This document shows, in pieces, positions 638 to 13,866 of a DNA stretch of 64,000 nucleotides. This stretch comes from Paenibacillus sabinae T27. GTDB taxonomy: Bacteria > Bacillota > Bacilli > Paenibacillales > Paenibacillaceae. The notes under the pieces are model-generated. The model saw only the letters and a list, made by a program, of their open reading frames with translations. It did not search any database and was not told where the DNA came from. Positions within the stretch are counted from its first letter, which is position 1. Each line of letters begins with the position of its first letter. The position numbers and the translations under genes were made by a program. The stretch is taken from positions 2,282,001 through 2,346,000 of the forward strand of contig NZ_CP004078.1 of assembly GCF_000612505.1 (NCBI RefSeq), given 5' to 3'.

Positions 638-700
638 CTTGCGGACAGTCTTTGATCAATTTGATATTTTGCAATATATAGGATGAACTTGCAAAATGGC

Positions 701-929
701 ATCAGGGTAAGGAGTAACGAAGGGGAATTTTGGAACTGTAGGAGCGATAGCGATCGCCCGAAAGCTTTCCGGAGGAAAGCTCGCTTCGAAAGCATAGGCT
801 GTCACCGGATTTCATCCGCGAATAGTGGTTTTAATTAAGAAATCTGGGGACAACAGCGGCCGGAAGTCCAAACATTCCTCGTAGTTACGACTGATATCTG
901 ATGTAAACAATTCAAGTTCAGCTTATATA
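701..929 (+). repeat. Conserved structured intergenic element, copy A (possible ncRNA)
   Basis: This fills most of the 333-bp gap between the SDR gene and the next dehydrogenase, and is nearly repeated at 13580-13769. The first 58 bases differ from the other copy at two positions (701-758 against 13580-13637), and 841-903 differs from 13681-13743 at four. Copy A can form GGAAT+TTTGGA (724-734) with TCCAAA+ATTCC (867-878, one bulged C), a GCGAT/ATCGC hairpin inside 743-757, a GGAC/GTCC stem, and TCGTA/TACGA near 879-890. It carries an extra segment of about 39 bases (around 759-800) containing GCTTTCC-GGA-GGAAAGC. No convincing ORF is present. A structured RNA or a small repeat family is inferred. 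Confidence 0.75.
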
Positions 930-10523: not shown

Positions 10524-12326
10524 ATGAGCCTTATCAATCGGTTCCATTCCATGGGGTTAAGGACAAAATTAATGCTTCTGCTGCTGATCATCACCGTTTT
10601 GCCCCTCGGATTGCTTGGGATGTTCTCGTACCGCAAGGCTTCCACGGAAATTCAGATCAAAGCTTACGAAATTATTTTGGAGAACCTGTCTCAGGTCAAT
10701 CACAGCTTGACCGACTTTGTCCAGGATATTGAGCAATTGTCGATGTACATCTACAGTAACGAAGATATACAGGAGATATTGTCCAAACCGTCATCCCGGA
10801 GCGTGGCTGAGAAGTATGAGGACGAGCAGACGGTGAACGGCATTTTGAAGAGCTTTCTCGGCTTTAAATCCTGGGACATCGAGCTGTATGTGATCGGCGT
10901 GAACGGAGAACGTTATTTTACAGGCGATTTTTTGCCGCCCGCTTACCGGGATTACCAGCCGAACTGGGGATTATTCCGCAAGACAAGAATCGCGGGCGGC
11001 GGCCCTGCCTGGGATACCCATTACTCCCTGAAGAAAATCGAGGATTACGGAGCTGTGTTAAGCTCGGGAAGGCTCCTGAAATCGATAAAAACCGGGGAGA
11101 CGCTCGGCTATTTCATCGTGGATATTAAGGAGTCCGCGCTGGCGGACAAGTATCAGAAGGCTCACCAGTATCCAGGCGGCGAGGTGTATTTGCTGGATGC
11201 GAACGGATATGTCATCTCCAGCAGTCCCTCTAAGCAGCAGGTCGGAACGCGCCTGAATAAAAGCTATATGGCTGAAGTGCTGAACGGCACCAAGGGCTAT
11301 TTTTCCACAGTGGACGAAGGGTCTGACAAAATGATTATATACGACTCCTCCGATTCCTCCGGCTTCAAAATGGTGAGTGTCGTCCCGATCGGCGTATTGA
11401 CGAAAGAGAGTCACAGCATCCGCAATTTGACGATATTTATCGTCATCTCATGCATACTGATCAGCTATTGCATTGCTTATTTGCTGTCCGATTACATGAC
11501 GCGCCCATTACGCAAGCTTCGCTTGTTGATGAACGAGGTGGAGAAGGGCCGGATGGACGTTACCTTTCCTTCAAAATATGGCGACGAGGTCGGACATCTG
11601 GGACGCAGCTTTAATACGATGCTCCGGCAGATCAACCGGTTAATCCGCGAAGGCTATGAGAAGCAGATTCAGGTGCAGGAGGCGGAAATCAAGGCGATTC
11701 AGGCGCAGTTTACGCCCCACTTTTTGTATAATGCGCTCGATTCGATTAACTGGATGGCGCGATTACACGGAATGGATGCGATCAGCAAAGTGGCTTTATC
11801 GCTGGGCAATCTGCTGCGGTTCAGCATCCGACGCGGCAATCCGGTCATTCCGATCCGTGAGGACATGAAGCAGATCCGCAATTATCTGACGATTGTTCAG
11901 CTTAGATACCGCGACAAAATCAACATCGAGCTTGATATTGACGAGGGCATTCTTGATCTCTACACTCCGAAGCTGCTGCTGCAGCCCCTGGTTGAGAATG
12001 CGGTGGGGCACGGGCTGGAGATGAAGGAGGGCCAGGGAACATTGCGGATTTGGGCAGGTGCCGTAGACCGGGATGTAGAGTTCATCGTCGAGGACGATGG
12101 CGTCGGGATGAACGGGGACAAACTGGCGAAGCTGTGGGAGCAGGAGGGAGATAGCGGACCGTCCGCAAAGACACGGATTGGCCTGCACAATTTGAAGAAA
12201 CGGCTGGAGCTGCATTTTGGGACGGCATATCAGCTGGAGGTGGAGAGTGAAGCGGGCAAAGGAACGAAGGTGACGATTCGGATTCCTTGCATTACTGATC
12301 CGAAGGAGGTTGAACGGGTTGTATAA
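10524..12326 (+). CDS. Sensor histidine kinase, YesM/LytS-type (HPK7)
   Basis: 600 residues. Membrane helix about 15-35, a large extracellular sensor (about 36-300, Cache-like), second helix about 303-325, HAMP about 326-380, then the His_kinase domain with the phospho-accepting His near residue 398 in FTPHFLYNALDSINW, and an ATPase domain with LVENAVGHG, DDGVGM and GIGLHNLKKRL. YesM-type kinases pair with AraC-type response regulators and usually control an adjacent ABC uptake system. The start has GGCGGAGAGG upstream. It overlaps the regulator gene by 8 bp. The ligand is unknown; the transporter genes that follow are the obvious candidates for regulation. Confidence 0.93.
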   Translation: MSLINRFHSMGLRTKLMLLLLIITVLPLGLLGMFSYRKASTEIQIKAYEIILENLSQVNHSLTDFVQDIEQLSMYIYSNEDIQEILSKPSSRSVAEKYEDEQTVNGILKSFLGFKSWDIELYVIGVNGERYFTGDFLPPAYRDYQPNWGLFRKTRIAGGGPAWDTHYSLKKIEDYGAVLSSGRLLKSIKTGETLGYFIVDIKESALADKYQKAHQYPGGEVYLLDANGYVISSSPSKQQVGTRLNKSYMAEVLNGTKGYFSTVDEGSDKMIIYDSSDSSGFKMVSVVPIGVLTKESHSIRNLTIFIVISCILISYCIAYLLSDYMTRPLRKLRLLMNEVEKGRMDVTFPSKYGDEVGHLGRSFNTMLRQINRLIREGYEKQIQVQEAEIKAIQAQFTPHFLYNALDSINWMARLHGMDAISKVALSLGNLLRFSIRRGNPVIPIREDMKQIRNYLTIVQLRYRDKINIELDIDEGILDLYTPKLLLQPLVENAVGHGLEMKEGQGTLRIWAGAVDRDVEFIVEDDGVGMNGDKLAKLWEQEGDSGPSAKTRIGLHNLKKRLELHFGTAYQLEVESEAGKGTKVTIRIPCITDPKEVERVV

Positions 12327-13560
12327 AGTGTTGATTACAGACGATGAGTGGCTCATCAGGGAGGGACTGAAGCAGACGATTGACTGGCAGGCTCTCGATT
12401 GCGAGATTGTGGCCGAGGCTTTGAACGGAGAGCAATCGCTGCAGGCGGTTAAAGAGCATAAACCGGATATTTTGCTGACTGATATTCGGATGCCGAGTAT
12501 GGATGGAATGCAGCTTGCGGAAGAAGCGCAGCGGATTCACCCTAGTATTCGCATTATATTTTTAACGGGATTTGATGACTTTACCTATGCACAGCAGGCA
12601 GTGAAGCTTAAAGCAGCTGATTATGTATTGAAGCCGACCAATCCGGATGAATTAGTGGAGGTCTTTGAGAAGGTCTGCGGGGATATCAAGGCCAGCAGGG
12701 ACAATGAAACGGTCGAACGGGAGCTTAGAGAATGGGTGTCCGCCGGGTATACCCTTGTGCTGGAGAAGCTTCTTCATGACCAATTATTAGGGATTTCCGA
12801 TCCGAAATCCGCCAGGATGTTAACGGAGATCATCGATAACCGGCGGCTGTGTGAAGAAGGGTTCCGCATTGCACTGATTCAGTATGAGGATCATACCTGC
12901 TGGCACGAGCAGCTCAAGGATGAACTGCATGACCGATTATGGGATATACTCATAGGGCCTCCTGTGACGCTGGGCGGGAACCGTGCGGCGCTAATGATCG
13001 GAGCGGATTCAGGAGATCATGGTAAGCAGCTCTGGAGCCGGATTCAAGAGATTTCAGGGAACAGCCCGCTCGTTATTGGGCTAAGCCTGCCGCATCAAAG
13101 CCTTGAGAGTGTAGGGCAGGCTCACCGCGAGGCGACGGCCGCGCTTCATTTCAAGCGCCCGGGTCCGGGGCAGAAGAGCGGAGTATATGAGTTTGGCGAT
13201 ATTGAGTGCTGGGGAGAGCAGCCTGTAGCTACAGATGCCGCCAATTTCAAACAGGTAGAGGCATTCATTCAGACACGCTATGCGGAGGATCTGTCCTTGC
13301 AGCAGCTCGCCGCCCAGTTTCACATAAGTGAGGCCCATTTCAGCAGACTGTTCCGTAAAGCTACGGGGACGACCTTTATTGATTATGTGACACAGGTGAG
13401 AATGGAAAAAGCGATGGAGCTGTTAAGTTCTCCTGATTCGCGGATATATGAAGTATCGCTGGCCGTCGGCTATCAGGATTCACGCTATTTCAGCCAGTTA
13501 TTCCGCAAGGCTACAGGCAAGACCCCGACAGAATTCCGTAAAGAAAGGGAACTTATATAA
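12319..13560 (+). CDS. Response regulator with AraC-type DNA-binding domain (YesN-like)
   Basis: 413 residues from TTG 12319, giving MYKVLITDDEW; AAGGAGG at 12303-12309 is well placed for it, while the in-frame TTG at 12310 abuts the site. The receiver domain holds the DD pair, the phospho-acceptor Asp in LLTDIRMPSMDG and the Lys in VLKPTNPDE. A middle region of about 180 residues has no clear motif. The last 100 residues are the double helix-turn-helix of AraC proteins (SLQQLAAQFHISEAHFSRLFRK and YEVSLAVGYQDSRYFSQLFRK). It is co-translated with the kinase and most likely controls the transporter genes from 13991 on. Confidence 0.93.
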   Translation: MYKVLITDDEWLIREGLKQTIDWQALDCEIVAEALNGEQSLQAVKEHKPDILLTDIRMPSMDGMQLAEEAQRIHPSIRIIFLTGFDDFTYAQQAVKLKAADYVLKPTNPDELVEVFEKVCGDIKASRDNETVERELREWVSAGYTLVLEKLLHDQLLGISDPKSARMLTEIIDNRRLCEEGFRIALIQYEDHTCWHEQLKDELHDRLWDILIGPPVTLGGNRAALMIGADSGDHGKQLWSRIQEISGNSPLVIGLSLPHQSLESVGQAHREATAALHFKRPGPGQKSGVYEFGDIECWGEQPVATDAANFKQVEAFIQTRYAEDLSLQQLAAQFHISEAHFSRLFRKATGTTFIDYVTQVRMEKAMELLSSPDSRIYEVSLAVGYQDSRYFSQLFRKATGKTPTEFRKERELI

Positions 13561-13579
13561 GATGAGCTTGAAAAATGTA

Positions 13580-13769
13580 ATCAGTGTAAGGAGTAACGAA
13601 GGGGAAGTTTGGAACTGTAGGAGCGATAGCGATCGCCTTTGTCTCCGGATTGCAACCGCGAAGAGTGGATTAAATCAAGAAATCTGGAGACAACAGCGGC
13701 CGGAAGTCCAAACGTTCCTCGTAGTTGCGACTGGTATCTGATGGAAAAATCTTTAGTTCAGCTTATATA
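13580..13769 (+). repeat. Conserved structured intergenic element, copy B (possible ncRNA)
   Basis: Second copy of the element at 701-929, same orientation, lying in the 430-bp gap between the AraC-type regulator and the binding-protein gene. The long stem is GGAA-G-TTTGGA (13603-13613) with TCCAAA-C-TTCC (13707-13718, one bulged G). The small hairpin is TCGTA/TGCGA, where copy A has TACGA. Copy B lacks the roughly 39-base hairpin insert of copy A. About 50 bp after its end a strong terminator hairpin follows (13819-13866), upstream of the transporter genes. Confidence 0.75.
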
Positions 13770-13818: not shown

Positions 13819-13866
13819 AGTAAAATCAAGGGATCGTCCCCGAAAGGGGGCGATTTTACTGTTTTT
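13819..13866 (+). terminator. Strong intrinsic terminator / possible attenuator ahead of the transporter operon
   Basis: AGTAAAATC (13819-13827) can pair with GATTTTACT (13852-13860), and inside it ATCGTCCCC pairs with GGGGGCGAT around a GAAA tetraloop (the inner and outer pairings share bases). TTTTT follows. It stands between copy B and the binding-protein gene. Confidence 0.85.

Follow-up and report, generated by a model that had tools for sequence, protein, structure and literature searches.

RUP of Streptococcus and the Correia elements of Neisseria are MITEs linked to IS630, and the ERIC sequences of enterobacteria are imperfect palindromes of ~130 bp. ERIC sequences are present in high copy number, as stated in the accessible text of PMC10969869, and the part of PMC8266576 available defines REP sequences as 20–50 nt long. 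IS630-family elements duplicate TA, according to the accessible part of PMC2170065, and the reference list of that paper includes one on IS630 and CTAG. Short DNA hairpins also matter for what follows: the accessible text of PMC4686876 describes extraordinarily stable DNA mini-hairpins, in which a GNA or GNNA loop is closed by two or more G-C pairs, and that of PMC8373063 presents GNNA/GNAB loops as the DNA counterparts of the RNA GNRA loop.

The Paenibacillus repeat family analysed here is like the IS630-family MITEs (RUP, Correia) in being short, non-coding and intergenic, with IS terminal inverted repeats (TIRs) and a TA duplication, but its core is absent from the IS630 elements examined and is common to elements with other TIRs, and the family shows cross-species covariation and fixed loop motifs. 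It resembles ERIC sequences as a set of high-copy imperfect palindromes, from which it is set apart, by description rather than by sequence, in having an identified IS type as its likely mobiliser and near-invariant internal loops. With REP/REPIN sequences, the kind associated with TnpA-REP, it shares a strand-specific hairpin, conserved mismatches and many intergenic copies, but its core is ~145 nt rather than 20–50 nt and has no conserved GTAG foot. Lastly, the mini-hairpins d(GCGAAGC) and d(GCGNNAGC) are built like the side hairpin of the core, a GNA or GNNA loop set on two G-C pairs; those in the accessible part of PMC4686876 are short designed or isolated fragments, whereas here the motif is conserved across a family of bacterial repeats. 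MITEs as such are familiar elements; what is new as a variant is a core that several TIR types have in common, that covaries across species and that follows the loop code of DNA mini-hairpins.

The window (the whole 64,000-nucleotide stretch of Paenibacillus sabinae T27 that was analysed) contains two copies, confirmed at 701–929 (copy A) and 13580–13769 (copy B), with a similarity far above chance (E 3.2e-45 in a BLAST search of the genome). We read them as MITEs of an order-wide family, moved by IS630 and carrying a conserved core that folds as a single strand, and we give this joint reading a probability of roughly 0.8. An earlier note on this DNA had described a two-copy element, and that number is far too low: in the 5.27-Mb genome, BLAST of 701–929 finds 29 places, of which 21 are nearly full length, and a covariance model finds 28 matches.

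The inverted repeat TATATAAGATGAACTT stands at both ends, with 0–3 mismatches, in 21/21 of the nearly full-length copies, so the element is longer than was reported. Copy A is 251 bp (677–927, + strand) and copy B is 212 bp (13556–13767, + strand), and the inverted repeats of both are 16 bp. In copy A, the left one is TATATAGGATGAACTT at 675–690 (+) and the right one, read as TATATAAGCTGAACTT on the minus strand, is at 914–929, the first and last TA being the presumed target duplication; these ends follow the TIR pattern, and their exact positions are set by analogy with copy B, for which a TA duplication was deduced. In copy B, the left one is TATATAAGATGAGCTT at 13554–13569 (+) and the right one is at 13754–13769 (−), and here the first and last TA are the target duplication. 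The genome has two size classes, set apart by an inserted hairpin module of ~40 bp. Copy A is the long form, with the module (a GNA-loop hairpin, CTTTCC-GGA-GGAAAG) at 759–799 (+), and copy B is the short form. Two single ends were also found, as were three short end pairs (45, 71 and 101 bp, both ends included), which we take to be copies with an internal deletion.

Neither copy contains a transposase gene (no frame of ≥80 aa lies within either element), and no coding content was seen, as the earlier note had held. A 97-aa frame at 13448–13741 runs across a gene end into the copy B element. The response-regulator gene upstream (12310–13560) has its stop codon in the left inverted repeat of copy B, and its protein length is unchanged by the copy, ending in ELI in the window and ELM in the relative's locus L234. 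Just after copy B, at 13820–13866, a hairpin (GTAAAATC...GATTTTAC) followed by a T-run is kept in 5 relatives and looks like an intrinsic terminator.

Copy B is absent from 5/5 orthologous sites compared in relatives (L230–L234), and copy A from 6/6 (L259–L264), where the target is too diverged for a duplication to be read. Taking the element and one TA out of site B leaves AACTTATGTGAAT, the same sequence as in L234, so the TA was duplicated. In two relatives, G071 and G076, the TA of TIR-intact copies is preceded by C and followed by G in 26/55 and 9/15 cases, respectively, so that they often sit at CTAG.

The IS630 catalytic domain (PF13358) has a match in 49 of 100 genomes of the genus and 0 matches in the copies' own genome. 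Seven IS630 elements were delimited out of 30 fetched IS630-domain loci. Five of them (L434, L438, L440, L441 and L446; 1134–1177 bp) have class-1 ends, with CTATATAAGTTGAACTA at both ends of L434, and the ends of the other two (L451 and L442) are related to class 1. Because their ends are common to IS630 transposons of related genomes, the copies are MITEs probably moved by IS630, whose transposase would bind the element ends in trans, then cut and paste the element. With no IS630 catalytic-domain match in their own genome, the copies there are probably stranded. A profile search found no core in the seven delimited IS630 elements. Their transposase is split over two reading frames in L434, L438, L440, L446 and L451, which would reflect either frameshifting or decay. 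The earlier note had held that the element was not an insertion remnant, a view that falls in the note's own terms: TIRs, the TA duplication in copy B, empty orthologous sites and ends shared with IS630 make it a transposable repeat.

The family extends well beyond one species. Covariance-model matches number at least 149 in G071 and 116 in G076, and across the order 109 of the 149 genomes sampled, in 22 of 38 genera, have at least one; in the first BLAST search of relatives, 25 of 40 genomes had a match, the own genome included. Among the 80 named loci listed of at least 120, 77 are from Paenibacillus, 2 from Bacillus sp. FJAT-27264 and 1 from an Acidobacteria MAG. Copies are mostly intergenic, with a predicted gene overlapped by >60 bp at only 7 of 134 copies in G071 and G076. 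Phage records had no match to the element, and plasmids had three partial Paenibacillus places, without an annotated feature in a table holding only protein genes. Literature searches for this repeat or for Paenibacillus repeats, MITEs or structured RNAs, covering few subscription papers, turned up no description of it, and the family is apparently undescribed so far.

Within the element lies the folding core, whose + strand forms a long stem with interruptions. In copy A it occupies 714–888 (+), as judged from family covariation and the helices of the predicted fold: an outer stem (714–718/884–888), a stem at 722–734/867–880 and part of P2 (805–813/839–847), along with a side mini-hairpin, GC-GATA-GC with a GNNA loop, at 744–751 (+). 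In copy B, the MFE fold and family covariation place the core at 13593–13728 (+), with helices at 13593–13597/13724–13728, 13601–13613/13707–13720, 13615–13616/13705–13706, 13633–13636/13696–13699 and 13639–13651/13681–13693 (the last being P2), and the side mini-hairpin GC-GATA-GC at 13623–13630 (+). The MFE fold of copy B has an energy of −54.7 kcal/mol, with z of −5.0 on the + strand and −1.7 on the − strand.

A covariance model across Paenibacillus genomes, the check proposed in the earlier note, was built, and covariation support is strong; the long-range stem which that note had proposed covaries genuinely throughout the family. We aligned 126 non-redundant cores by sequence alone, some of them gathered with a fixed pattern that constrains columns 44–67 and leaves loop columns 40–43 free. 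RNAalifold misregistered the outer stem on this gapped alignment, so column-pair statistics were used instead. All ten of the column pairs that covary most strongly are nested stem pairs; two of these ten, 26–125 and 28–123, are only 50–56% standard because the bulge shifts. Lower in the ranking, non-stem pairs occur as well. In 42 diverse sequences, 92.0% of cells pair, compared with 81.5% when shuffled and 31–48% when slid. Compensatory (i.e., two-sided) changes occur at 26 of 39 pairs, phylogeny ignored, and 170 cells are changed on both sides, against 42.6 when shuffled and at most 57 when slid.

The stem cells comprise 3604 standard pairs, 235 G-T, 38 A-C and 119 others. G-T cells are far above A-C cells, so the + strand is the folding strand. 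Conservation outside the stems, another point of the earlier note, is borne out as long conserved loops: the two symmetric GNA/GNA internal loops are near-invariant (G-A in 125/126 and A-G in 116/126; G-A in 111/126 and A-G in 122/126), as is a CT/CA loop (C-A mismatch in 126/126, T-C in 121/126). Our inference is that the core does its work as a single folded strand, which a factor of the host or of the transposon would recognise.

The two copies differ less neatly than the earlier note had it. Its count of two differences in the first 58 shared bases is exact (706/13585 and 728/13607). The 63-base 3′ block is indeed strongly similar, but it was said to have four differences and there are nine over the last 63 bases to 929/13769; the four meant were presumably those at 874, 887, 894 and 904. 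The change in the stem arms is real, yet it is not the two-sided compensation described, as the bulge moves by one position. The commonest arm form among other copies has a 5′ G and a 3′ CA, and each copy departs from it by a single base, copy A by G to T at 728 and copy B by A to G at 13714, the direction being that suggested by the majority, with both forms present among the other copies in the own genome. The pairing TCGTA/TACGA, described there as a second hairpin, shares bases with the 3′ arm of the outer stem found throughout the family; this outer stem reads GTAAC/GTTAC in copy A and GTAAC/GTTGC in copy B.

The interior core of ~145 nt is also found in other species between different inverted repeats. 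Around it are CTAGAAGT.CGGTGAA-type ends, likewise at CTAG (L162, L164, L186 and L182), CAGGCTGCCCTCAAAA-type ends (L117, L127, L153 and others), GAGGCCACTGAAAAACG-type ends (L148, L170 and L202) and AATGAGTGCTTAACTC ends (L122). At 125 of the 185 core hits examined, there is no clear inverted repeat (score <10). Comparison of the ends suggests that several transposon types may have taken up the core. At L175, the core has CAGGSTGTTGAAAAA-type ends with a 7-bp direct repeat, AGATGTT, to either side, which suggests a mobiliser other than IS630. The right flank of L162 has two successive CTAGAAGTACGGTGAA-type ends in tandem on one side of the core.

A further, tentative proposal builds on this variety of ends. 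The core may be a self-standing folded ssDNA module, with GNA/GNNA mini-hairpins and GNA/GNA internal loops, that has spread order-wide by acquiring varied transposon ends time and again (IS630-type CTATATAAG and CTAGAAGT, as well as CAGGCTG, GAGGCCACTG and ATGAGTGCTT types) and acts on the lagging-strand template; we regard this as possible, at rather less than even odds. Our main reading, too, takes folded DNA exposed on that template as slightly the likelier form; the core would then be a cis-acting site that helps the transposon ends around it, of whatever type, to spread or to be tolerated.

The hairpin module of copy A (759–799) recurs elsewhere in the cores of other species (L094, L108, L112, L120, L197 and L204), reversed in L094 and L120, and a hairpin related to it stands alone at L028. 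The inserted module may be a nested repeat with its own mobility.

The side hairpin is informative on whether the core folds as DNA or as RNA. It consists of two G-C pairs and a GNNA, GNAB or GNA loop. In the 126-row set, four-base loops are GNNA in 69 of 77 cases (62 with a pyrimidine third base) and GNAB in 6, three-base loops are GNA in 39 of 42, and 7 of the 126 rows are not of the two-G-C-pair form. Copies found independently of the fixed pattern gave 144 scored loops: 91 GNNA (81 with a pyrimidine third base), 44 GNAB, 7 GNA and 2 others, so the code (GC-GNNA/GNAB/GNA-GC) is obeyed in 142/144. These loops are mostly from G071 and G076 and were found by a profile seeded with the earlier set; the loop expression demands two G-C pairs, and the 11 of 155 distinct copies that it did not match were left out. 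Split by length, four-base loops are GNNA or GNAB in 135/137, with only 10 GNRA, and three-base loops are GNA in 7/7. Where the module tail is present, the centre of the inserted-module hairpin is GNA in 26 of 28 cases, and in 58 other cases of the same module stem the centre is GNA in 15, TNC (the opposite strand of GNA) in 40 and something else in 3.

This GNA/GNNA/GNAB loop code favours folded DNA. An RNA-binding protein that reads the G and the A in the loop could give the same code, and RNA folding agrees with the covariation structure no less well than DNA folding does, which counts against the DNA form. We consider the core slightly more likely to act as DNA than as RNA, with neither form reaching even odds and the rest undecided. 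The earlier note had called the element RNA-like, and this stands as far as a selected structure is concerned; its RNA nature is unproven, and the side-hairpin loops point at least as much to folded DNA.

The strongest rival to our main reading is that the core is a structured RNA, transcribed in mRNAs or alone and perhaps serving as a processing, stability or protein-binding element, which IS630 ends merely disperse. In its favour are a one-strand fold that tolerates G-U, with one pair at which G-U is the commonest combination (75/126), and copy B itself, which when folded as RNA gives the structure seen in the covariation. Gene orientation also fits: at 134 sites in G071 and G076, both neighbouring genes are co-oriented with the element at 87, opposed at 15 and mixed at 32, and among the 87 co-oriented cores, 40 stop 24–74 nt short of a predicted start codon. 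Among 98 named loci, tandem co-orientation is 42/66, but without class-1 ends (89 loci) it is a weak 36/60, so the orientation bias is not universal. The side-hairpin loops likewise speak against RNA, as they avoid GNRA (10/137) and use GNYA, GAAT, GAAC and GNA, which are stable DNA loops. Nor was any Rfam family found, in agreement with the earlier note: the window had no match at the gathering threshold, and six loci searched at E ≤ 5 had only one match on the element, a microRNA model in L082 that stayed below its threshold (20.8 of 76 bits). We regard a structured RNA as plausible, though closer to one chance in three than to an even one.

Replication offers another view of orientation. 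The + strand is co-directional with the fork at 131 of 165 places (74/86 in G071, 35/49 in G076 and 22/30 in the own genome), which puts the folding strand on the lagging-strand template. These are 86 listed of at least 149 copies in G071, 49 of 116 in G076 and 30 own places, i.e., 28 of the 29 BLAST places (L028, which matches only the module, is omitted) plus 2 model matches. The replication terminus was assumed to lie opposite dnaA, genes were called by codon score, and one G071 copy at a contig end was omitted from the gene-orientation test, leaving its 134 sites. Where fork and genes disagree at tandem-gene sites, 4 copies follow the fork and 3 the genes (n = 7), and mixed sites follow the fork in 20/32. 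TIR-intact and degraded copies are alike overall (55/70 vs 53/64 follow the fork), with only 7/15 of TIR-intact G076 copies doing so. Convergent gaps exceed divergent ones by 25 to 7 among the 98 named loci. Strong orientation looks like a subfamily trait. Simple fork-only and gene-only rules were both rejected, as neither fits all the data, and because genes and fork run the same way, effects of transcription and replication are inseparable here.

An ordinary palindromic MITE, with an interior that is a functionless relic and a palindrome kept by youth and gene conversion, would account for the defined TIRs, the TA duplication, the absence of a gene and the mostly intergenic placement. It would not account for compensation across species at two-thirds of the pairs (26/39), for near-invariant internal loops and a loop code, for the strand asymmetry of the fold or for the same core between unlike TIRs, and we consider it unlikely. 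More improbable still is a REP/REPIN-like element that is moved as ssDNA by a Y1 (HUH) transposase and gained its IS630-like ends later, since the strand-specific hairpin with conserved mismatches, DNA-like loops and fork-biased orientation that it would explain come without a conserved GTAG-type foot (consensus columns 7–10 are not conserved) and with a TA duplication and TIRs as in IS630, and the own genome's two Y1_Tnp frames are 147 aa, the size of IS200 transposases. A dedicated gene partner beside the core was also considered and rejected: of the frame clusters that recur next to the core, ten annotated representatives included no transposase and were ABC-transporter, solute-binding, oxidoreductase (i.e., transport or metabolic) or phage-type proteins, or had no Pfam match.

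IS630-moved MITEs with a conserved folded-strand core therefore remain our preferred reading. The family is a structure-conserved, sequence-variable module with at least 149 copies in one genome, a presence in 22 of 38 genera and a likely mobilising IS family. The question of why MITEs in bacteria have conserved folds at all could readily be studied with it. Should the fold act as DNA, this would be a natural, widespread use of super-stable GNA/GNNA mini-hairpins; should it act as RNA, the family would be a large one of structured RNAs that Rfam lacks. For those annotating Paenibacillus genomes, note that the family may confuse the calling of repeats, terminators and ncRNAs.

Some copies have unusual surroundings. 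At L082, positions 585–1885 are a tandem array that contains cores, with units of ~405 bp, 3.2 copies and 92% matches. In contigs of a virus collection (L210–L228, 5–35 kb) and in genome loci L083 and L106, the core lies near the same phage-type genes (holin, Gp48-like), and several of these have extra short direct repeats beside the core.
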